Virus record (IMG/VR): IMGVR_UViG_3300030450_001276
Coordinates: 17,740 to 40,486 of that record
DNA length: 22,747 bases
Reading direction: 5' to 3' (one strand)
DNA from: a virus
In this document: in pieces, positions 6,366-21,142 of the stretch
How the letters are laid out: every line of letters begins with the position of its first letter
Numbering within the stretch: position 1 is the first letter of the stretch
Notes under the pieces: generated by a model
What the model was told of the DNA's origin: nothing
What the model saw: the letters and a program-made list of their open reading frames with translations, nothing else
Database searches by the model: none
Position numbers and translations under genes: made by a program

Positions 6366-7227
6366 GACTTTAGATACTTTAGTTGAAGATATTAATAGTG
6401 TATTAACAGACATATCATCAGGAATTAAACCTGATGTAAAAGAAGAACAGTTAGATAAGTTCTTAAACAATACTAAGTTAGCTTTACTTGATTGGCTTGA
6501 GCCTCGTAAGAGTTCAGGTAAAGGTTTAAGAATGTCTGTGATTGGTAGACCTGCTCGACAACTTTGGTATGATAATCATATCGAAAGAGAGACAGAAATA
6601 CATGACCCTTCTACCCAATTAAAATTTTTATATGGTCATATACTAGAACATTTACTTTTATTCTTGGTTGAATTATCAGGACACGAAGTAACTGCACAAC
6701 AAAAGAAAGTTCTTGTTGAAGATGTTAATGGTCATATGGATTGTAAGATTGACGGAGAAGTTGTTGATGTTAAGTCAGCTTCACCAATGTCATTTAAGAA
6801 ATTTAAGAATGGTACTTTATATGAAGATGACCCATTCGGATATGTTGCCCAACTCGCAGGGTATGAACACAACGAACCAAGTAATAATGGTGGGTTGTTT
6901 GCAGTAAATAAATCATCAGGTGAGATTGCATTGTTTAGACCTGATGAACTAATGAAACCAAATGCAGAAAAATTAATTAAAGATTTAAAGGAGAAACTAA
7001 AAGCTAATGAACCACCTGAGAAATGTTATCAACCGATTCCTCACGATAAGACTGGAAACTTCAAGCTTCCTATTGGGTGTGTGTACTGTCCTCATAAGTT
7101 TATTTGTCATGGGGATTCTAATGACGGCGACGGACTTAGAGTATTTAAATATGCAAACACAAATATATTCATGACAACGGTAGTTAACAAACCTAAAGTT
7201 GAAGAGATAACAGAAAGGTATAAGTAA
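6322..7227 (+). CDS. RecB/Cas4-type PD-(D/E)XK exonuclease with a cysteine cluster
   Basis: The 301-aa protein shows a RecB/Cas4-like nuclease core: GHILEH (His106, Glu109), GHMD (Asp140), VVDVKS (Asp149, Lys151) and the QxxxY motif (Gln177, Tyr181). Four cysteines follow at 235, 253, 256 and 262 (C-x2-C-x5-C at the end), like the iron-sulfur knuckle of Cas4 and AddB. It probably degrades host DNA or processes ends for recombination, the role of the gp6 exonuclease in T7. The start at 6322 overlaps the polymerase end by 44 nt and lacks a strong ribosome-binding site; the GTG at 6337 is a possible later start. The nuclease core begins well downstream, so either start keeps it complete. Confidence 0.88.
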   Translation: MENIKVETTGKKHTKTLDTLVEDINSVLTDISSGIKPDVKEEQLDKFLNNTKLALLDWLEPRKSSGKGLRMSVIGRPARQLWYDNHIERETEIHDPSTQLKFLYGHILEHLLLFLVELSGHEVTAQQKKVLVEDVNGHMDCKIDGEVVDVKSASPMSFKKFKNGTLYEDDPFGYVAQLAGYEHNEPSNNGGLFAVNKSSGEIALFRPDELMKPNAEKLIKDLKEKLKANEPPEKCYQPIPHDKTGNFKLPIGCVYCPHKFICHGDSNDGDGLRVFKYANTNIFMTTVVNKPKVEEITERYK

Positions 7228-7460
7228 TGTATTTTATAATCACGGCAATGTTATTCTTTAGTAGTACTGACCAAGTTATATATACTCAGTATGATAAAGC
7301 TACATTCGATTCTTCCAACACTTGTCAAGAATTTTTGTTCCAGAATAAGGTACAGTTATTAAAAGAACTTTTTGCAGAGCATAATAAGAATGATGATATG
7401 AAAGGATTTGAATTCTTTTGTGAAAATAGATATATAATATTAGAGGATGTTCACTTATGA
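7227..7460 (+). CDS. Small exported two-cysteine protein A (77 aa)
   Basis: The N-terminus is hydrophobic (YFIITAMLFF, residues 2-11), which could be a short signal or anchor, and is followed by a polar domain with only two cysteines, Cys33 and Cys65. The middle reads FDSSNTCQEFLFQN. The same pattern appears in the protein at 11305 (FSTEASCVEYLSQN, with a second Cys 38 residues on), so the two are probably paralogues. A pair of cysteines after an export-type N-terminus suggests a disulfide in the periplasm. Its first base is shared with the exonuclease stop (TAATG), and its end overlaps the next gene. The function is unknown; envelope modification or superinfection exclusion would fit. Confidence 0.65.
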   Translation: MYFIITAMLFFSSTDQVIYTQYDKATFDSSNTCQEFLFQNKVQLLKELFAEHNKNDDMKGFEFFCENRYIILEDVHL

Positions 7461-11304: not shown

Positions 11305-11544
11305 GTGTGGTATATAGCAGTCGTTGCTGTGTTCATTGACTTTGGTTTACCCTTACACAGTGCATATTTAGCAGAATACTTTTCTACTGAAGCATCTTGT
11401 GTAGAATATTTAAGTCAAAACTCTGACTTCTTATATAAGAGTGTGACAGAAGAGTTTCCTCAATATGAAAATGAAGGAAACTCTTATAATCTTGAGAGTA
11501 TAACTCTCTCTTGTAAGTATTATAGTCCTTTAATAGATGCTTAA
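11305..11544 (+). CDS. Small exported two-cysteine protein B (79 aa)
   Basis: It starts at GTG 11305 with GGAGG about eight bases upstream. The N-terminal 15 residues are hydrophobic (WYIAVVAVFIDFG), a likely signal or anchor. The rest is acidic and aromatic, with just two cysteines, Cys32 and Cys70, the first in FSTEASCVEYLSQN. This matches the 77-aa protein at 7227 (FDSSNTCQEFLFQN, Cys33 and Cys65), so the two are probably diverged copies. A periplasmic disulfide protein is a reasonable guess. Its TAA abuts, without a gap, the stop codon of the opposing late operon. Confidence 0.65.
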   Translation: MWYIAVVAVFIDFGLPLHSAYLAEYFSTEASCVEYLSQNSDFLYKSVTEEFPQYENEGNSYNLESITLSCKYYSPLIDA

Positions 11545-11976
11545 TTACTTCTTAACTAAACTTCCACCAAAATATAATCCGATAATTGCAGACACTAAGT
11601 TAGTATCTAAAGGTGTAATCACGATACCTTTATGTGCCATAGGAACCCATTGCATTACATCTTTACCTTCTAAGAATAAGAAACCTGGTTTCCATTCTGT
11701 GTAACCAACGATGACATGAGCATCAGGTGTAACTAGTGGTAAAATTTTTGGTAAAACTACAATGGCAAATACAGCAGTCAATGCTATGATTCTTCTTGTC
11801 CATTGAAATCCTACATTATCGTATTCTCTAGCTTCTTTAAAAGCTGCAGTTTGTACCTCTGCTCTTTGTATGAGCATCTTCTGTTCAGCTTGTTTAGCCT
11901 TTATACTTTGTGACCATATACTCATAATTCCACCAAGCACGGTAGAACCAAGCATTGTTATCATTTCAAATGGCAT
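11545..11976 (-). CDS. Three-helix membrane protein, probable holin
   Basis: The 143-aa protein has three hydrophobic segments at about residues 5-21, 62-82 (RRIIALTAVFAIVVLPKILPLV) and 126-141 (LVSAIIGLYFGGSLV). Between the first two is a charged, Gln/Ala-rich helix (KAKQAEQKMLIQRAEVQTAAFKEAREY). This layout resembles the three-TM holins of gene transfer agents and alphaproteobacterial phages, which open the inner membrane at lysis. It is the last gene of the late operon and starts one base after the stop of the 18-aa amphipathic peptide, so the two are translated together. No classical endolysin gene lies next to it; the only cell-wall enzyme in the window is the transglycosylase at 12650. 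The holin call is moderate: structure and position fit, family membership is unchecked. Confidence 0.6.
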   Translation of the reverse strand: MPFEMITMLGSTVLGGIMSIWSQSIKAKQAEQKMLIQRAEVQTAAFKEAREYDNVGFQWTRRIIALTAVFAIVVLPKILPLVTPDAHVIVGYTEWKPGFLFLEGKDVMQWVPMAHKGIVITPLDTNLVSAIIGLYFGGSLVKK

Positions 11977-11977
11977 A

Positions 11978-12034
11978 CTATAATCCTAGTTTAGATTTAA
12001 TCTTAGCGATTAATTTTTTTATTTTCTTTATCAT
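11978..12034 (-). CDS. 18-aa cationic amphipathic peptide, candidate lysis peptide
   Basis: The frame on the minus strand begins with ATG at 12034 and ends with TAG at 11980-11978. A strong AAGGAG precedes it with a five-base spacer, one of the best ribosome-binding sites in the window. The product, MIKKIKKLIAKIKSKLGL, has seven lysines and no acidic residue. Hydrophobic residues at 2, 5, 8, 9, 12 and 16 fall on one face of a helix, the pattern of membrane-disrupting antimicrobial peptides. It is followed after one base by the holin-like gene. Phage 'disruptins' are cationic peptides that breach the outer membrane in place of spanins; this could be a much smaller analogue. Alternatively it is only a leader that promotes translation of the next gene. 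Confidence 0.5.
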   Translation of the reverse strand: MIKKIKKLIAKIKSKLGL

Positions 12035-12088
12035 TTTTTCTCCTTTTTAGGGGGGTGCTATGGTATTAGACACCTCCGATTTGTTAAT

Positions 12089-12157
12089 CCTCGTGCATCC
12101 TAGAGCGTTTTTTTTGTCTAGAATGCACTAAAAATTCCTCCTGCCCCAAACACGAGG
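12089..12157 (-). promoter_or_regulatory. Nested inverted repeats between Hsp20 and the lysis genes
   Basis: A near-perfect 12-bp stem joins 12093-12104 and 12117-12128 (GTGCATnCTAGA type, 12-nt loop). The one mismatch is C-A on the plus strand but a G-U wobble in minus-strand RNA, which suggests an RNA made with the late operon. An outer 7-bp repeat, CCTCGTG at 12089-12095 and CACGAGG at 12151-12157, begins right at the Hsp20 stop and competes with the inner stem for 12093-12095. An AGGAGGAA (12142-12135) is followed eight bases on by GTG at 12128 opening a 14-codon frame to 12084, a possible leader peptide. No U-tract follows, so it is not an ordinary terminator. Between 12035 and 12088 only a weak hairpin and the peptide's ribosome-binding site are seen. 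Confidence 0.5.
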
Positions 12158-12592
12158 TTATTTTATTTTAATTGTCTTACTCTTCTTTTCTTCAGGAAGA
12201 TTAAGTTTCATCTTAACTAAAAGGATACCGTCTTTAAACTCTGCATCCTTTACTTCAAGATGTTCTGCAAGAGTCCATCGTCTAGTGAAAGCTCTCTTGG
12301 CTATTCCTTTATGAAGGAAACTTTCTTCCTCATCTTTAGTCTCCTTAGAAGCTGAGACAGTTAAGACATCTTCTTTAACTTCAACATCGATATCATCTTT
12401 AGTGAATCCTGCTAAAGCCATTTCCAATTCATAACCATCAGTACCAATCTTACGAATATTGTAAGGTGGGTAACTCGGTGCTTCAAAGTTTGACATTGAA
12501 GACAGTTGGTCAAAGATAGAATCAAAGCCGACTGTTAAGTTTTTAAATGGGTCTGCATTAAATACCAGACCTCTTGTTGTAGGTATATTCAT
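12158..12592 (-). CDS. hsp20: Hsp20 small heat-shock protein (IbpA-like)
   Basis: The 144-aa protein is a complete alpha-crystallin chaperone. YPPYNI opens the crystallin domain (residues about 41-134), followed by YELEMALAGFTKDDIDVEV, LTVSASKE, FLHKGIAKRAFTRRWTLAEHLEV and the conserved GILLVKMKLNLPEE. The IxI motif (Ile141-Lys-Ile143) that caps neighbouring dimers is at the C-terminus. The N-terminal FDSIFDQL resembles bacterial IbpA. It holds unfolded proteins in a refoldable state without ATP. Hsp20 genes are common in marine T4-like phages and lie there among structural genes; here too the gene sits between virion proteins and the lysis genes, which suggests help in folding the large virion proteins. 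GGAG lies eight bases before the start. Confidence 0.96.
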   Translation of the reverse strand: MNIPTTRGLVFNADPFKNLTVGFDSIFDQLSSMSNFEAPSYPPYNIRKIGTDGYELEMALAGFTKDDIDVEVKEDVLTVSASKETKDEEESFLHKGIAKRAFTRRWTLAEHLEVKDAEFKDGILLVKMKLNLPEEKKSKTIKIK

Positions 12593-12633: not shown

Positions 12634-12664
12634 TTTAAGAAGCTATACCTTAAGCCTTCTTAAA
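12634..12664 (-). repeat. Inverted repeat spanning the transglycosylase stop codon
   Basis: TTTAAGAAG (12634-12642) and CTTCTTAAA (12656-12664) are perfect 9-bp arms with a 13-nt loop. The stop codon of the transglycosylase lies in the structure. No U-run follows on the minus strand, so this is at best an RNA-processing or weak pausing hairpin before Hsp20. The rest of 12593-12649 holds an AAC/CAA-rich leader with no promoter that I can see. Confidence 0.35.
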
Positions 12665-14383
12665 TCTTTTTTTGTCTAGCAATCCACCCTTTTTAAAGCT
12701 AAGCCCAATACTAGTACTAATCTTTCCATCTTCATTAATAGTTATTTTTGGCTTTGCATCTAGATAGTTATCTCCTACAAAACCTGTAACATCTGTTCCT
12801 ATTCCTATATTAAATCCTTCTTCAGTATTATAACCTCCTACAACATTTAGACCATCTGTCCAACCACCAACTTGTGTCCAACCACTCATTGGTGTATTAG
12901 TATAATTAGCTCCCCAACCTGTCTTATATGATGTTTCTATTCCAACATTACTATTATCTAAATTATAAGAAGCTTCTGTAGAAGTCATGTCTGTGTGATA
13001 ACCTGCTTTAATTGAAGTATCACTATCAGTAAAGTTTCCTTCTTTTACACTACTAAATGGAGTTACACTTTCGAGACCAAGTGTCCCAAAATTACCTGCA
13101 ATATCCCAACCAGTCTCAATTCCACCAACATATCCTTCGTTAGTTACAGTAGCATATGTACCAATAGGGTCATAACTAATATCGGCAGGGCTTAAATTAG
13201 AGTATGTTTTCCACCCTAAAAATTCTGGAGTATAATTTTTTTTATCTTTTTTTTCTTCCTCGACACCTATTTTAGAAGTCTTTGCAGTAGTACCTATATG
13301 AGGATTTGCTGGAGTTTTACTTACTCCAAAATCAGGTTGACTTGCATCTGCTCCTCCACCCTTTCCCTGATTAGAACTACTAGAACTACTAGAACTACTA
13401 GAACTACTAGAACTACCTTGGTCAGCTCCACCTCCGTGTGGGTTGCCACCTTGCGATGAACTACTTTTACTTTTACTTTTACCTCTTCCTCTATCTCTTG
13501 GAGGATAAGCACGAATACCAGACTTAGTCATTTCTCCTGTTCCACCTGCTTTCTTTAACATGTCCGCTTCGTTAGGAGTAATGTAAGCAAGTTGATGTCC
13601 TTTAGGAGCAGTAGCATTTAAAACATTAGCCATTTGTTTTTGTATAGCAATACTAGTTTCTGTAGGTTTTACCATAGCTCCCCCTAAATTCATCTCTGGT
13701 CTTTTAACTGGGGTTATTACTTTTTCTTTTGTTGGTTTTTTAACTGGCACTACATTAGGACCTAGAACTTTATTAACATAATTCAAAGTTTCTTCAGGTA
13801 AACTATTTCTTTTAATCCCCTCTTTATCAATCCAGTAACCTTTTTTCTTAAACCTTGTGTACCTTGAAGGGCCAAAGTTGTAGGCGGCAACAGCATCTCT
13901 TTCATTTCCATAATGTTTAACTAATCCTTTTATATATGAAGTTCCAAACTCAATATTTTTTTCTGGATTTTTTAAATCTTCTTCAGTTAAAGGAATAAAA
14001 TTTTTCTCACTTATCTTTTTTCCTTTGTTATCTATAATATATCCTGGATAAGCACTAGCAGTTCCTGGCATAATCTGCATTAATCCTATAGCTCCTTTAT
14101 CTGAGGGAGGAGTATTTGGATTAGAACTACTTTCAACTTCAATAATTCTTTGGATTAAAGGGTCATCAGACCAAACACGAAAACCATCTTCATACCCTCC
14201 ACTATTATATCCCTTCCTTCCTAAGAATTCTGCAAATGTAAATCGTGGATTACCTCTTTGATTTGAAGTAGAGTATTTTCCTACGTCTGAACTTTCAGTG
14301 TTCTTTAAACCATATGCTTTATTGCCCACTTGAAAGAACTGGGATAAAAGTTTCTTTGTTGACATTGGGTTATCGTACCACAT
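12650..14383 (-). CDS. Virion-associated lytic transglycosylase (SLT domain, 577 aa)
   Basis: Residues about 73-180 form an SLT-type transglycosylase domain: the catalytic Glu84 in EVESSSNP, then GAIGLMQIMPGTA (100-109), EFGTSYIKGLVKHYG and AAYNFGPSRY (166-175). The domain cleaves peptidoglycan glycan strands to leave anhydro-muramic ends. A low-complexity Gly/Ser linker (residues about 300-350), including 14 consecutive serines, leads to a repetitive Gly/Tyr/Thr-rich C-terminal region that looks beta-stranded (GVETSYKTGW, VGGYNTEEGFNIGIG). It sits two bases after the giant internal virion protein and before Hsp20, so it is probably packaged and used to make a hole in the cell wall during DNA entry; use at lysis cannot be excluded. 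A Met at codon 7 is an alternative start. Confidence 0.85.
   Translation of the reverse strand: MWYDNPMSTKKLLSQFFQVGNKAYGLKNTESSDVGKYSTSNQRGNPRFTFAEFLGRKGYNSGGYEDGFRVWSDDPLIQRIIEVESSSNPNTPPSDKGAIGLMQIMPGTASAYPGYIIDNKGKKISEKNFIPLTEEDLKNPEKNIEFGTSYIKGLVKHYGNERDAVAAYNFGPSRYTRFKKKGYWIDKEGIKRNSLPEETLNYVNKVLGPNVVPVKKPTKEKVITPVKRPEMNLGGAMVKPTETSIAIQKQMANVLNATAPKGHQLAYITPNEADMLKKAGGTGEMTKSGIRAYPPRDRGRGKSKSKSSSSQGGNPHGGGADQGSSSSSSSSSSSSSSNQGKGGGADASQPDFGVSKTPANPHIGTTAKTSKIGVEEEKKDKKNYTPEFLGWKTYSNLSPADISYDPIGTYATVTNEGYVGGIETGWDIAGNFGTLGLESVTPFSSVKEGNFTDSDTSIKAGYHTDMTSTEASYNLDNSNVGIETSYKTGWGANYTNTPMSGWTQVGGWTDGLNVVGGYNTEEGFNIGIGTDVTGFVGDNYLDAKPKITINEDGKISTSIGLSFKKGGLLDKKRFKKA
13373..13417 (-). repeat. 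Five tandem 9-bp repeats encoding poly-Ser
   Basis: Five units of AGAACTACT (plus strand; the last unit ends in C) lie head to tail. On the minus strand they read AGT AGT TCT and encode the 14-serine run of the transglycosylase linker (residues about 323-337). Such a pure repeat can change length by slippage without breaking the frame. Confidence 0.9.
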
Positions 14384-14384
14384 A

Positions 14385-17300
14385 TTAAACCTTCTTTATC
14401 ATTACTGCACTACCATTTATTTTATAACTACTAGGAATTTTAGATATTTCAAATCCATCTCCTAGTATTGATTTTATATAATCTAGTAGTTCATTTATTT
14501 TAAATCCTTTTTGAAAAGTTTCGTTGTCACCTTTCTTCATAACAAAACCATCATTCAATTTTCTTAATGGGTTTCCTTCTATTATAGGTCTAGTATTTAT
14601 AATTGCTACTCCATCATCAGCTAATAATTTTCCAATATTTTTTACAACCTCTGCTCTATTAGATGGATTAGGAATAACATTTAATACAGCATGACTTATA
14701 ATAGCTTTAAATTTATTTTTACCTTCTACTTCTATTAAAGTTTTTTCATTTTTATATTCAGGTACTTTTCCTTTATAAGTAATGTTATTGTGTTTATAAG
14801 AAAGAGCTTCTAAATCTTTATTTGCTTTTGCAAATGGTTCAAAACTTTTTGTCTTACCTAATTTTTCTAAAACTCTAGAGCCTAATCCTAAACCAGAACC
14901 ATAATCTAATATATCTATGTTTTCAAAATTTCTAAAGTTAATTCCTTTTTCTTCTAAGAAAGGAACATACTTCTCATAAGTTGCTACTGTATTTTTTATC
15001 TGAGTAGCTCCAGGATTAATTTTTTTCGTAGCTACTTTAGTAACTCCTTTAGTTGATGCTTTACTTATAGCTTTACCAACTAACCCTCCTAAAGCAAAAC
15101 CTATTTCTGAACCAGAACCAAAACCTAAAGGAATACCAAAACCTAAATCAAAATCAGGATTTAATGGGAAATCTCTTTCCTCTACAGGGTCATAGTTAAA
15201 CCACCATAGTTCTTCAGGAAAAGCATTCTCCATCATTCTTCTATATTCAGGAGGTATCATCCAAAGATTTGTGTTTTCCATCCACTCTAAACCTATATCT
15301 GCCAAAGGCCTACCTGATGCTACTTCTTTAGGTAAACTGAAAAGACTTGTTATAGTTTCAGCACCAGGAAAAAAGTTAAGAGGTTCTCTAGGATTATAAG
15401 TAGCATAACTATATACATTACCAGCTAACCATCCTGGATTACCTGACAACATAATACCATCAGCTAGAGCATCTTGTGGTGATGAATCTTCCCATTGAAA
15501 TCCAGTCTTAACCCATCTTCTAAGTTGATGTAAAGCTGTAAATACAGGTATAGTCATTAACATTTTTACTGCTAATCTAGCTTCACCATTTTCTATTCTT
15601 TGTAGTAGTGCATTTGTTTGAGAAGACTTTGCTTGTGCCCAAGAACTAAACTGTCCTAATAATCTTAATGTAGGATTTTTTGATTGAGTAAATAACATTC
15701 TATTTCCAACAGCAGGAATGATAGCATCTCTATCCATAGCAACTCTTCCTGAATATGACATTAATCTACTTCCTAAAGTATCTGCCTTTGCTTCTTTCCA
15801 GTTTTTAAAAGTACCAAACTTTAGAATCTCATTTAGATTAGTAATTCTACCATCAGCATCAGTCTTAGCTATACCCATCTTTATAGCTCTATCATATAAT
15901 CTTCTAGCCTTTCTACCTACAATATTCACATAAGGTAGAGCAGCCAATTCTCCTAAACTTCTTCCATTAACTTCTGTAAATCTTACAATATCTCTAGCAA
16001 GATTTAAACCATCAATAGCTCCAAAGTTAAAAGCAGTTCTTCTTCCTAATTCAGTAACATCTTGTAAACCTACAAGTTTAAAAAAATGTTCATTACCTTT
16101 AGATAAAGCTCTTAATAAAAGGTTTGGGTCACCTTCTTCAATAAAAGCACTAGAAGATAATTCTCTTAAAGCTTTCTTTGCTACATTATCATGATGTAAA
16201 TATAAAACATCTGCTGGTTGGTCTGTAATCTTACGAGGTTTAGTAGTAAAAGGAAGTCTTCTTGGCATATTAACAGTAGCTGCTGTTCCTTGCATCCAAG
16301 TTTTAAAGTAATAACTATTTTGGAATGTTTGAACAATATCACCAAGGTTTGCTAATGAGACTGTACCCATTAATCTTGTGTTAGTTAAGAAAGAAACAAG
16401 AGCTGCAGTAGTTCTTTGAATTCTACCTGCCTCAGTTCCATGTCTACCAAAGTAAGCATGAACTCCATCTATCATAGCTCTTATATCATTCTGTTCTCCT
16501 TTAGAAGTATTTATAAATCCTTGGTTTAAATACTGCTTACGCAAATTATCTTTTAAACGTATTAAACCTTCTCCATTTTTTCCAAATACTTTAGAAAATT
16601 CTACAGATTTTGTACTTTTATTTACCATATTTAAAAGAACTGCTGATACATCATTTACAAAATATTTACTTAAAGGCCCTTCTACTAAATCATAACTACC
16701 TTGTAACATTCTATCTAGTTCTACATGTTCAAGAATGTCAGTACTAGTACTTTTTGGAAGGATTTTCAGATGTTCTTGTATAGGTGTTTTAAAAGTAAGA
16801 GTAGCATGTCCTTTTTTATCTACTCCTTGTGTTATTAAATTCTCATAATCATTTTTCATAACACCATGATAATACTTTGTAGCTGCTCCTTTAAAATCTG
16901 ATAATTTTTTATTGTACTTCTTACCTTTATTTTTTATATCAGACCTAAAATTTTTCTTAGCTTTATTATATAAAACTTTTTGTATATCTTTTATAAATTG
17001 TTCTTTATTCTTTGAAATAAAAACTTTGTTATGAACACGAGGAAAATAATTTTCTATTATTTCTTTAGGTGATATACCACCTTGTATTAAATAATTCTTA
17101 TGTACTTCTAAAAATTGATTAATTCTTTTAGATAAAGCTTGAGAATCTTTTACAATAGTTGTACCATTTACTTTATCTAAATTTTTTAATTCTTTTAATG
17201 TAGTTGTTCTAAAAGTTTTTCCTCCATCGTCAGTAAGAGTTATAATACTTTTACTTTTTGTTCCTCCTCTAACAAGAGACATTGCAATTTGTTGAATCTG

Positions 17301-19034
17301 TGGACTATTATAAGCGATATCATCAATAACACCCACCATTTTATCATCTCCAAATAATAAGACTTTAAAATTATCTAGTGCTTTACCTGCATTTTGTTCT
17401 ACACTTGATGTCCCACCTTTATAACTCTGAAATAGAAGATTAGAAAATCTTCCCATGACAGACCCTCTACCTTCTAATCTTGTAGCAAGAGTCATACCTG
17501 ACCAAGTTTTTAATTTCCACATTCCGTAATGAGCGTGTTCTCTAATAGCTTTACCAAAAACATTATCAGCTACTTTTTTAGGTAAATACTTCGGACCTTG
17601 AATAAGTAGACGATAACCACCCATAAGCATAGCTCCACCTATAGCCCAGTTAAGCATGTCTTCGTTATCATCTCCAGCGAGGACACCAAACATTCCACCA
17701 ACCACTCCTCCAAAAGTAGGATAAACAGTGGATGCAAGAATACCTCTTATAACTTTATCACTTAAAGCAGCAGCTCCTCCTTTAGCATATAGTTGTTTAG
17801 TTATTTCTCCTATATACTCTCCACCTGCAGATGTTAAAGCTTTTATAGCATTATCATATTCATCAGCTACTTGACTCTGTAATGTTTTTTGTGCTTTAGA
17901 TAATTCTACTCTACGATTTATAAGTAAATCTTTCTTTTTTAAACCAGTATCTTTAAAATTTTCTATCCATTTTTTTTCTAACTTAGTTTTCTTATCAACT
18001 AAGCTATCAAGAGTTTTATAATTTTTTAAAGTAGGTTTAAAATTTTTAATTTGTTTTGAAAGTTGATTAAAAGTTTTAGTGTCTGTTTTAGCATCATCAA
18101 ATAATTTTAACATTCTTTGATATCTTTGAAACTCAAGAGTATTATCTTGTAGTGCTTGTATCGCAGCTTTTACTGAAGGTGTTGTAGCTATCTTTTGAAT
18201 CTTATCTAAAGATAAATTTGAAGTAATATTTCTTTCATCTATTTTATTTATAGCAGCTTTTATCACATCATCAGATATAGCTTTATTAGAAAACAAAGTA
18301 GGGAATGCTTTATTAAGACCCATTCTTCCTGCAGTTCCTATACCTGGGATAGCAGCGCTTAAGGCAGCTCCTAAACCTACTGATGTTCCCCACATTTTTG
18401 GGTCAATCCTACCTTCTTGGTCAAGCATTCTTATAGCCATGTCAGCACCAGCAGTTGCTCCTCCTAATCCAGCTAAAGCACTTCCTGATTGTAACATAGA
18501 TTTCCCATACTGTCCAGACTTCCAAGCTAATGAACCAGCTTTATAAGCTTTACCTCCCCAACCAATCCAAGGAATCCAAAGAATAGGGTCAGCCATAATT
18601 GTAGCCATCTGTCCGCCTATTACAGCGATATCACTATCATATTTTCCATCTTTAAATTCAGGAAACTCTTCCCAAACTTCTTGCATATGTTGATTCCAGG
18701 CATCTCTACTTCTTTCTTCATAAGTATCTCCTGTAGTTCCCCAGCCTGTAGCAGCAGTAAAGAATCTATAAGCACTACCAAGAGTCATGCTTTCTTTTGC
18801 CATACCATACTGTGCTTTTCTTGTTTCATCTGGTGCATCACCAACAAAAGAAGAAACATTAGATGGTTGTTGAGATGAATAACTAGGAATAGTAAGAGTA
18901 TTCTTTTGTCCTAACCATTCCTCATATTCTGAATCAGTATCAGGAGTAGTAGGAGTAGTAGGAATAGTAAGAGTACTCTTTTGTCCTAACCATTCCTCAT
19001 ATTCTGAAGATGTTTGTTGAATATTATCTGTCAT
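14385..19034 (-). CDS. Giant internal virion protein with C-terminal methyltransferase (1549 aa)
   Basis: This is the largest gene here. The N-terminus has two copies of SEYEEWLGQK-TLTIP. The body contains Gly/Ala-rich hydrophobic stretches (DPILWIPWIGWGGKAYKAG, FGGVVGGMFGVLAG) and long helical regions, as in the ejected core proteins of podophages (T7 gp15/gp16 role: forming a trans-envelope channel). From about residue 1339 it carries a class I SAM-dependent methyltransferase: ATQIKNTVATYEKY, motif I ILDYGSGLGLGS (Asp1377 onward), an acidic EPFAKANKD, motif IV-like ISHAVLNVIPNPSNRAEVV (about 1447) and LLADDGVAIINTR. This layout resembles methyltransferases found at the ends of large phage polyvalent proteins. 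It would enter the host with the DNA. The target is unknown; the DPPY/NPPY motif of DNA amino-methylases is absent. Confidence 0.8.
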   Translation of the reverse strand: MTDNIQQTSSEYEEWLGQKSTLTIPTTPTTPDTDSEYEEWLGQKNTLTIPSYSSQQPSNVSSFVGDAPDETRKAQYGMAKESMTLGSAYRFFTAATGWGTTGDTYEERSRDAWNQHMQEVWEEFPEFKDGKYDSDIAVIGGQMATIMADPILWIPWIGWGGKAYKAGSLAWKSGQYGKSMLQSGSALAGLGGATAGADMAIRMLDQEGRIDPKMWGTSVGLGAALSAAIPGIGTAGRMGLNKAFPTLFSNKAISDDVIKAAINKIDERNITSNLSLDKIQKIATTPSVKAAIQALQDNTLEFQRYQRMLKLFDDAKTDTKTFNQLSKQIKNFKPTLKNYKTLDSLVDKKTKLEKKWIENFKDTGLKKKDLLINRRVELSKAQKTLQSQVADEYDNAIKALTSAGGEYIGEITKQLYAKGGAAALSDKVIRGILASTVYPTFGGVVGGMFGVLAGDDNEDMLNWAIGGAMLMGGYRLLIQGPKYLPKKVADNVFGKAIREHAHYGMWKLKTWSGMTLATRLEGRGSVMGRFSNLLFQSYKGGTSSVEQNAGKALDNFKVLLFGDDKMVGVIDDIAYNSPQIQQIAMSLVRGGTKSKSIITLTDDGGKTFRTTTLKELKNLDKVNGTTIVKDSQALSKRINQFLEVHKNYLIQGGISPKEIIENYFPRVHNKVFISKNKEQFIKDIQKVLYNKAKKNFRSDIKNKGKKYNKKLSDFKGAATKYYHGVMKNDYENLITQGVDKKGHATLTFKTPIQEHLKILPKSTSTDILEHVELDRMLQGSYDLVEGPLSKYFVNDVSAVLLNMVNKSTKSVEFSKVFGKNGEGLIRLKDNLRKQYLNQGFINTSKGEQNDIRAMIDGVHAYFGRHGTEAGRIQRTTAALVSFLTNTRLMGTVSLANLGDIVQTFQNSYYFKTWMQGTAATVNMPRRLPFTTKPRKITDQPADVLYLHHDNVAKKALRELSSSAFIEEGDPNLLLRALSKGNEHFFKLVGLQDVTELGRRTAFNFGAIDGLNLARDIVRFTEVNGRSLGELAALPYVNIVGRKARRLYDRAIKMGIAKTDADGRITNLNEILKFGTFKNWKEAKADTLGSRLMSYSGRVAMDRDAIIPAVGNRMLFTQSKNPTLRLLGQFSSWAQAKSSQTNALLQRIENGEARLAVKMLMTIPVFTALHQLRRWVKTGFQWEDSSPQDALADGIMLSGNPGWLAGNVYSYATYNPREPLNFFPGAETITSLFSLPKEVASGRPLADIGLEWMENTNLWMIPPEYRRMMENAFPEELWWFNYDPVEERDFPLNPDFDLGFGIPLGFGSGSEIGFALGGLVGKAISKASTKGVTKVATKKINPGATQIKNTVATYEKYVPFLEEKGINFRNFENIDILDYGSGLGLGSRVLEKLGKTKSFEPFAKANKDLEALSYKHNNITYKGKVPEYKNEKTLIEVEGKNKFKAIISHAVLNVIPNPSNRAEVVKNIGKLLADDGVAIINTRPIIEGNPLRKLNDGFVMKKGDNETFQKGFKINELLDYIKSILGDGFEISKIPSSYKINGSAVMIKKV
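18886..19008 (-). repeat. 48-bp direct repeat, 75-bp period, in the giant virion gene
   Basis: The copies at 18886-18933 and 18961-19008 differ at a single base (18901 versus 18976), which changes Asn to Ser. They encode the duplicated SEYEEWLGQK[S/N]TLTIP near residues 9-50, separated by a TTP-repeat linker. The near-identity points to a recent duplication or gene conversion. Confidence 0.95.
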
Positions 19035-19042
19035 GATTATTT

Positions 19043-21142
19043 TTAAGCAATATCAAAGTTACTTAAATTAGTTGATAAAATTGATTTAGCAGTTTGGTCT
19101 GGAGTATTATCAGTTACTTTCTGAAGTTCAATTGAGTAAACTTTATAACCATACTCATTAGTATTTTCTACTACAACTGGTTTATATGTATCTCCTTCTA
19201 CTGTATTAAATTCTTGATTTATATCTATAGTTTTAGTTCCATCTTTAAATTTTGTAGCATTAATATCATTAACAGATACTTTTTTATTATTAAAAGTTTC
19301 TATAAATTTATTAGAAAGTAATCCTATACCTGATAACTCAGTGAGAGTATCCCAGTTTTGTCCAACTCCCATCCAAGGAGAACCTATCTTTTTAGTATTG
19401 GAATTGTAACTATACTTTTTATATGTTCCATCCTTATCTTCATCTATATACATTGGTGTATCTGCTGGAATAGTTTGTTTCTTTCCATCAATACTAACGA
19501 CTATACTACCATCTGCATTTTGTTTTACAAGCTTAGGAATTGAAGTAGAGTTAATTACTTGCTCTTCTGGAATAATTTCCTCTTCCTCTACTAATGGAGC
19601 TTGCTCTTCCTCTACTAATAGAGGTTGCTCTTCCTCTACTAATGGAGCTTCCTCTTCCTCTACTAATGGAGCTTGTTCTTCCTCTTTACTTTTACTAAAT
19701 AAATCTGTTAAAAGATTTGAAGAGGCAACTGCCATCATATTATTAAATGCATTACTAACATCACCATAATTAATAGGGTCCCAAATCTTTGCCCTATTCT
19801 CTTTCTGCCACTTTGCCGCAAGGTCTATTTCTAATTCATTTTGGAGAGCACTAAAAGCTGATACTACAGCAATACCTGCATCTATATCTTCTTGTGTAGC
19901 TAAAGATATTTTACCATCTTCTTGTACAGTAACGAGTGTATCATGTAATTTTTCTAAAGATTTATTATCAATTACATTTTGAGGAATTATTATTGGTCTT
20001 ACCTTAAAAGAATCTGCCCAGAATTTAAAGTTATCTACTTCAAATCGTACAGTTCTTCTATTAATATGTTGAATAGTCATATCTTTTACTGCATTTCCTG
20101 TCGCCAACGATTGGAAAGTCTCTAATGCGCTATCTGGGGTAAGCGTAGGAGCAAGATATATCTGTGTATAAAGTGCATCAAAAGAGTTTTTCATAAGAGG
20201 AAGTACTTGTTTATAATACTCCATTCCTAAAGGACTCATTCCTATCACTACTTTCTTACCCATAGACAGTTGTTCTTTATCATACTCAAATAAAGCATCC
20301 AATTCTTCTTGTGGCATATTTAAACTTCTTAGCATTATTTCCCTGATATTTGCATAGTCCTTTTCCGCAGACATTCCTGGCATTTGCCAAGCTAACCACT
20401 TATTCCAAGTTTCATCTAATCCAGGTACACTATCAATAAAAGCAGTAAAGTTTTCTTTTACTTCTTTAGAATTAAGATTAAAGCCTTCAATAGTACTTTC
20501 CACCTCTTCTGGTGTTTTATTCCAACTCCATTCAGTAGGAATTTCTCTATACTCTTTTAATTTATCTAGAGCATTGTTATTTCCTGTGCTTAAATCATCT
20601 TGAAGAGCTGCAAGAATCTTTGTTTCAGAAGCATTTTCTTTACCTAACCACCCACGAATTCTTTCTGTTAGAGGGCCTTGTAAATCTTCTGCTTTTACCA
20701 TAGCTTCATTATATTTTGTTTGGTCAAAAAATTCTCCCCACTTAGGAGCAACAGGTTCACTTAATCCTTTATATACATATTGTCCCTTTTCATTTTCTTC
20801 TACTTGACCTGAATAAAACTCTATAATTTTATTTCTAGAATCTTCATTACTTAACTCAGACCAACTAACACCATCATTTAAAGCTAACTGTTCAGCTATT
20901 TGAGTTTTAGTTGCATTACTACCTAAAGATTTAAGAGAGTTATTTATTTTATCATATCTATCTACTTCACTATAAAATCTATTTTCAGCTTGTCCATGTC
21001 TATTTACAGCAGTCATATAATCAAGTTTAAACTGCTCCATAATACGTTCACCTACATCATTAATTCTATCTGGTCTTGCTTTCTGGTCATCAACCAGCAT
21101 ACTAGAAAAAACATTAAGTGCATCTTTAGCTATATTACCCAT
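19043..21142 (-). CDS. Large late protein, probable internal virion or tail protein (699 aa)
   Basis: I recognise no enzyme motif. The first 180 residues are predicted helical and highly charged (RINDVGERIMEQFKLDYMTAVNRHGQ). The middle is mixed. Residues about 488-519 are four tandem copies of an acidic eight-residue unit (EEEQAPLV type) that must be a flexible spacer. The last 150 residues look strand-rich (IPKLVKQNADGSIVVSIDGKKQTIP). It is the first big gene upstream of the giant methyltransferase protein and two bases after the 203-aa gene, so it is probably part of the same virion or ejection assembly (T7 gp14/gp15-like position). Function by position only. GAGG lies just before the start. 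Confidence 0.65.
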   Translation of the reverse strand: MGNIAKDALNVFSSMLVDDQKARPDRINDVGERIMEQFKLDYMTAVNRHGQAENRFYSEVDRYDKINNSLKSLGSNATKTQIAEQLALNDGVSWSELSNEDSRNKIIEFYSGQVEENEKGQYVYKGLSEPVAPKWGEFFDQTKYNEAMVKAEDLQGPLTERIRGWLGKENASETKILAALQDDLSTGNNNALDKLKEYREIPTEWSWNKTPEEVESTIEGFNLNSKEVKENFTAFIDSVPGLDETWNKWLAWQMPGMSAEKDYANIREIMLRSLNMPQEELDALFEYDKEQLSMGKKVVIGMSPLGMEYYKQVLPLMKNSFDALYTQIYLAPTLTPDSALETFQSLATGNAVKDMTIQHINRRTVRFEVDNFKFWADSFKVRPIIIPQNVIDNKSLEKLHDTLVTVQEDGKISLATQEDIDAGIAVVSAFSALQNELEIDLAAKWQKENRAKIWDPINYGDVSNAFNNMMAVASSNLLTDLFSKSKEEEQAPLVEEEEAPLVEEEQPLLVEEEQAPLVEEEEIIPEEQVINSTSIPKLVKQNADGSIVVSIDGKKQTIPADTPMYIDEDKDGTYKKYSYNSNTKKIGSPWMGVGQNWDTLTELSGIGLLSNKFIETFNNKKVSVNDINATKFKDGTKTIDINQEFNTVEGDTYKPVVVENTNEYGYKVYSIELQKVTDNTPDQTAKSILSTNLSNFDIA
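19585..19680 (-). repeat. Four tandem 24-bp repeats encoding EEEQAPLV units
   Basis: Four head-to-tail 24-bp units (19585-19608, 19609-19632, 19633-19656, 19657-19680) differ at a few bases each. They encode an acidic, proline-containing linker in the 699-aa protein. In-frame expansion or loss of units is likely between related phages. Confidence 0.93.

Follow-up and report, generated by a model that had tools for sequence, protein, structure and literature searches.

A conserved small gene of marine phage lysis cassettes: an 18-codon amphipathic peptide frame beside a holin-like gene

Does a frame of only 18 codons, ending one base before the gene of a membrane protein, encode a working product and, if so, might this product take part in the lysis of the host? 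The question is raised by a stretch of 22,747 nucleotides (hereafter, the window), which is part of an IMG/VR virus record of 40,486 bases that may itself be partial. SAR11 phages are among the most abundant viruses of the sea, and the genes with which they open their hosts are largely unannotated; a literature search on pelagiphage lysis cassettes found no paper beyond a general mention. The features of the locus are collected in Table 1.

Table 1. Features of the window around the 18-codon frame
Feature	Position	Strand	Basis
143-aa holin-like membrane protein, phrog_38283 family	11545..11976	-	profile match, hydropathy, neighbourhood
Amphipathic peptide gene of 18 codons and a stop, encoding MIKKIKKLIAKIKSKLGL	11978..12034	-	ORF translation, recurrence, codon test
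AGGA in codons 16-17 of the peptide, a weak internal Shine-Dalgarno for the 143-aa gene	11984..11987	-	
Structured 5' UTR, from Hsp20 to the peptide	12035..12157	-	conservation, folding
Shine-Dalgarno AAGGAG of the peptide gene	12040..12045	-	5 bases 5' of ATG
Hsp20/alpha-crystallin gene, 5' of the peptide	12158..12592	-	
577-aa SLT transglycosylase-domain protein, candidate endolysin or virion lysin	12650..14383	-	

The peptide translated from 12034-11978, on the minus strand, which the first-pass annotation did not specify, contains seven lysines and neither aspartate nor glutamate. The frame cannot be longer, since an in-frame TAA sits five codons 5' of its ATG, and its stop is followed by a single T and then by the ATG of the 143-aa frame; its AAGGAG is the same in 12 out of 12 aligned relatives. 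These data confirm what the first-pass annotation had read from the sequence, i.e. a seven-lysine, acid-free frame with a good ribosome-binding site one base before a membrane protein gene. In the window, eight frames with a length of 15-30 codons start at an ATG led by a Shine-Dalgarno (SD) sequence, and the peptide has the highest hydrophobic moment among them (0.557). In order-2 Markov sequences, 0.037 frames as good as this one are expected per window, and 0.0033 if a net charge of at least +4 is added.

The recurrence of the peptide in relatives is much stronger evidence than this estimate of chance. A pattern for relatives built on the peptide only and run over all IMG/VR contigs retrieved 28 loci, in 20 of which the peptide ends no more than one base from a gene of the 143-aa type. 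Ten distinct peptides, 18-23 aa long, precede such a gene; they occur in at least three genome backgrounds and their surroundings vary, in that they may lie after Hsp20, after a gene coding for 409-423 aa or 5' of a GroES-like gene. Relatives of the peptide also precede a different gene in L172 and in the cultured pelagiphage HTVC033P. The hydrophobic moments of the peptides preceding the 143-aa-type gene range from 0.52 to 0.75, and positions 2, 5, 9, 12 and 16 are hydrophobic in all 11 tabulated variants. The possibility of a chance frame in an AT-rich genome is ruled out by the Markov expectation, the recurrence in IMG/VR and these fixed hydrophobic positions. A tblastn search of phage records with a 23-aa relative gave no match.

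The codons of the peptide were also compared between close pairs, linked in a tree-like path. The pooled counts, which are small and come from pairs that are not perfectly independent, amount to 21.5 synonymous versus 24.5 nonsynonymous changes, a synonymous excess with P from 7e-5 to 4e-3 for kappa of 1-5; the significance belongs to the pooled test only, single-pair neutral simulations being individually weak (P 0.02-0.44). Thus, both the short frame before homologous holin-like genes and the synonymous-site bias for which the first-pass annotation had proposed to look were found. On sequence grounds, the 18-aa frame is a real small gene, conserved and so far overlooked, in the lysis cassette of a marine phage. 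That such genes escape notice, as had been suspected, is exemplified by HTVC033P, whose 26-aa bare peptide MIQKIKEKIKNLWAKFVDWLFSGYDK (positions 20554-20631 of its record, minus strand) lacks annotation.

The partner gene had been regarded as holin-like. Hydropathy places the hydrophobic segments of the 143-aa protein at about residues 4-22, 59-83 and 118-137, and positive charge is found both behind the first of them and at the C terminus. The protein is small, its segments may span the membrane and its C-terminal end is positively charged, as in a holin. AlphaFold models obtained with two alignments are mostly helical, with low confidence (pLDDT of about 60), and the AF2 helices at 55-82 and 122-136 are of low confidence as well. 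The sole profile match is phrog_38283, a family of unknown function conserved in pelagiphages and roseophages; none of the Pfam and NCBIfam holin models matches the 143-aa family, and searching the sequences of Pfam, NCBIfam and PDB with this family gave no convincing match.

Among 64 genes scanned in the roseophage-type branch, the one directly 5' of the 143-aa homologue mostly codes for a peptidoglycan hydrolase; its product is usually long and has hydrolase or peptidoglycan-binding domains, those found being LysM, PG_binding_1, Phage_lysozyme, Pesticin, GH19, GH108, Hydrolase_2, Amidase_2, CHAP and NLPC; hydrolase or peptidoglycan-binding domains were present in eight of ten sampled upstream genes of these loci. 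A 1-nt overlap is seen in 30 out of 78 roseophage-type loci, and in 13 of them the two genes abut. Moreover, the CRP-5 homologue is preceded by a putative lytic transglycosylase, and in T7-like pelagiphages the homologue lies near an Rz-like protein with a transmembrane (TM) segment and a coiled coil, DNA maturase B, and a lysozyme or peptidase. The adjacency to an endolysin gene expected of a holin is thus seen through the roseophage-type homologues, the SLT-domain gene of the window being two genes from the peptide. Judged by its hydropathy and by the genes around it, the 143-aa protein is in all likelihood a holin, and the earlier suggestion gains from both the three hydrophobic segments and the hydrolase neighbours. 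Its homologues bear the annotation "hypothetical" or "peptidase M15", the latter in Skadi-4, HTVC203P and HTVC024P (L081, L088 and L089); the M15 label is to be rejected, the domain being absent by Pfam in 22 out of 22 members.

The statement that no endolysin is visible nearby does not hold, since the SLT-domain gene is the second gene upstream of the peptide, on the same strand and about 0.6 kb away. A 121-aa protein with a TM segment and a coiled coil (22324-21959) weakly matches an Rz-like spanin family (E 0.0045). The order of the window, with Hsp20 before the cassette, resembles that of the pelagiphage isolates HTVC103P, HTVC104P and HTVC115P. The gene before Hsp20 varies in size and in its middle part among close relatives: the window version carries the SLT domain and that of L054 (378 aa) an "NNPGNI" stretch, and L042 (258 aa) shows neither in the part read, so that lytic domains may possibly be swapped in this gene.

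Concerning the way in which the two frames are expressed, the stop of the peptide lies within one base of the holin-like start in every version (spacing from -1 to +1). In L053-type relatives, the AGGA embedded in codons 16-17 reads AGGAG, and no clear SD stands ahead of the holin-like ATG in the L028/L033 group. Because of this spacing, together with the internal AGGA or the lack of a clear SD, the two genes are likely to be translationally coupled, as had been proposed, and the coupling may set the ratio of the two products. Upstream, the 123-base UTR is nearly invariant in 12 loci (alignment mean 94%), with Hsp20 proteins down to 85% identical, and an exact 38-base pattern from it is present in 17 IMG/VR contigs. 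Its RNA folds 4.6 standard deviations better than shuffled sequences (z -4.6) and includes a 12-bp hairpin (arms 12117-12128 and 12093-12104), in which the changes keep the pairing; the structure contains one compensatory pair, i.e. thin covariation. An Rfam search of the UTR returned no family.

Behind this very UTR and SD, four relatives (L042, L362, L363 and L364) carry, in place of the bare peptide, a miniprotein of 35-36 aa with an amphipathic N-terminal part and a C-terminal hydrophobic anchor (e.g. MEKLIQIKDWFIDLEKKWKIAIAVGVVIIIALIVGV). A tree built from the 143-aa gene places L042 as sister to the window sequence (support 97), and L152/L168, which have the anchored form, as sister to L194, which has the bare helix (support 100); the bare-peptide label changes six times on this tree, five of the changes being forced by well-supported branches. 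In L364, and in L363 by its first bases, the UTR and the anchored protein precede another holin-like family, phrog_2524. If the bare and the anchored helices do the same job, then this job should be performed at the inner membrane. However, the N-terminal moments of the two forms overlap only in part, and they may be unrelated replacements with different jobs.

What, then, might the peptide do? The reading we favour, with about even confidence, is that of an inner-membrane partner or timer of the holin, rather than an outer-membrane disruptin or a mere coupling leader. The 18-aa frame would be translated as a gene of a SAR11-phage lysis cassette, giving a bare amphipathic helix in the cytoplasm; this helix would bind to the inner membrane from its cytoplasmic side and work with the co-translated three-segment protein, the putative holin, either promoting hole formation or setting the moment at which the holin fires. 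Against this reading, many relatives whose 143-aa proteins are 78-97% identical have no such peptide, which implies that the peptide is dispensable for the 143-aa protein. If the frame were instead a leader that loads ribosomes and sets the rate of holin synthesis by termination-reinitiation, with an inert product, then the invariably tight spacing, the L028/L033 group and the highly conserved structured UTR lying 5' of the peptide would all be expected. Coupling, however, does not explain the preserved helix, whose pattern persists despite sequence divergence and with a synonymous excess. The peptide does not drift while its position and ribosome-binding site persist: relatives retaining that site carry another amphipathic miniprotein, with no stops, whereas a decayed frame behind a kept site was what the first-pass annotation had taken as the mark of a leader. 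Furthermore, relatives of the peptide stand before a different gene in L172 and HTVC033P, and the relatives that lack the peptide possess their own SD. We thus consider the leader quite improbable. Even more doubtful appears an antiholin acting by protein contact, in which the helix would pair as a coiled coil with the charged helix of the 143-aa protein (about 26-50) and not with lipid; the hydrophobic positions do follow a 3-4 heptad spacing, and coiled-coil proteins fill the same slot in Skadi/HTVC203P-type phages, but the replacement by a TM-anchored form suggests that the membrane matters.

The idea from which this analysis started, a disruptin-like peptide in a minimal lysis unit, is somewhat more probable, although we judge it unlikely. 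In this reading, the peptide would remain cytoplasmic up to the opening of the inner membrane by the holin and would then break the outer one, replacing spanins. The window peptide is indeed a phage-encoded cationic amphipathic peptide (charge +7, moment 0.56) without acidic residues, like short antimicrobial helices, and it belongs to a lysis cassette in a phage of a Gram-negative host. The archetypal disruptin, that of phage phiKT, has 56 aa, considerably more than the 18 found here. Citing Holt et al. (2022) for this disruptin, PMC12819732 presents it as a short helix of amphipathic character whose action resembles that of LL-37. The likeness, which lies in the small size, the amphipathic and cationic helix and the place in a lysis cassette, weakens once the relatives are considered: nine of the ten distinct peptides carry 2-5 acidic residues and are near-balanced (net +1 to +4), so that the pure cationicity of the window peptide, the extreme of the set, is private to its lineage. 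Moreover, the sister lineage fills the slot with the anchored form, which could not reach the outer membrane, and Rz-like proteins with TM and coiled coil exist in some pelagiphage cassettes. The lysis idea is therefore broadly right: the pairing of a lysis-cassette gene with a holin-like gene is supported, and the cationic disruptin as a trait of the class is not. Phenol-soluble modulins and other short amphipathic lytic peptides offer a parallel in length, mixed charge and hydrophobic face, but the peptide studied here is phage-encoded, lies inside a lysis cassette and has no known export. The favoured holin partner, in turn, recalls the antiholins (lambda S107, T4 RI/RIII), phage proteins that time the holin, a role only proposed here and for a separate and much shorter gene. 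It also recalls the two-component holins, such as HolP30/HolP33 of phage Deep-Purple, both needed for lysis in B. thuringiensis (PMC9327680), in that a second small membrane-active protein is predicted beside the holin; however, the known partners have TM domains and the one proposed here is a bare helix.

The HTVC033P cassette has the order XhlA-like, amidase, phrog_2524, coiled coil and peptide. The phrog_2524 gene directly follows the amidase in this phage and the lysozyme in HTVC200P, and lies near the endolysin in Pseudomonas phage PA11. Tentatively, and with less than even confidence, we extend the holin-partner reading to SAR11 and related marine phages, which would share a modular cassette where a bare helix of 18-26 aa without TM segment acts with the holin on the cytoplasmic side of the inner membrane, is swappable with an anchored helix, serves two holin families and, in one lineage, stands behind a structured RNA leader. 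The analysis yields a candidate holin family and a peptide gene family below the usual size for gene calling. Should the bare helix prove to be a partner of the holin, few known lysis proteins would be as small, and the TM anchor would be optional; HTVC033P on HTCC1062 is an isolate suited to testing a relative of the peptide.

Some minor observations concern the neighbouring genes. Two small signal-peptide-like, Cys-containing proteins of the window, of 79 aa (11305-11544, plus strand) and 77 aa (7227-7460, plus strand), have a layout like those beside the holin-like gene in L016, L054 and HTVC033P. A 1549-aa internal-virion-like protein (14385-19034, minus strand) resembles a methyltransferase over a stretch at its C terminus (Pfam Methyltransf_23, E 5e-5, under the curated cut-off). 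Lastly, XhlA-like proteins with a coiled coil and a TM segment, which carry no lysis-protein annotation, adjoin SLT or amidase genes in the pelagiphage cassettes L121 (1692-2380) and L361 (2371-3014).
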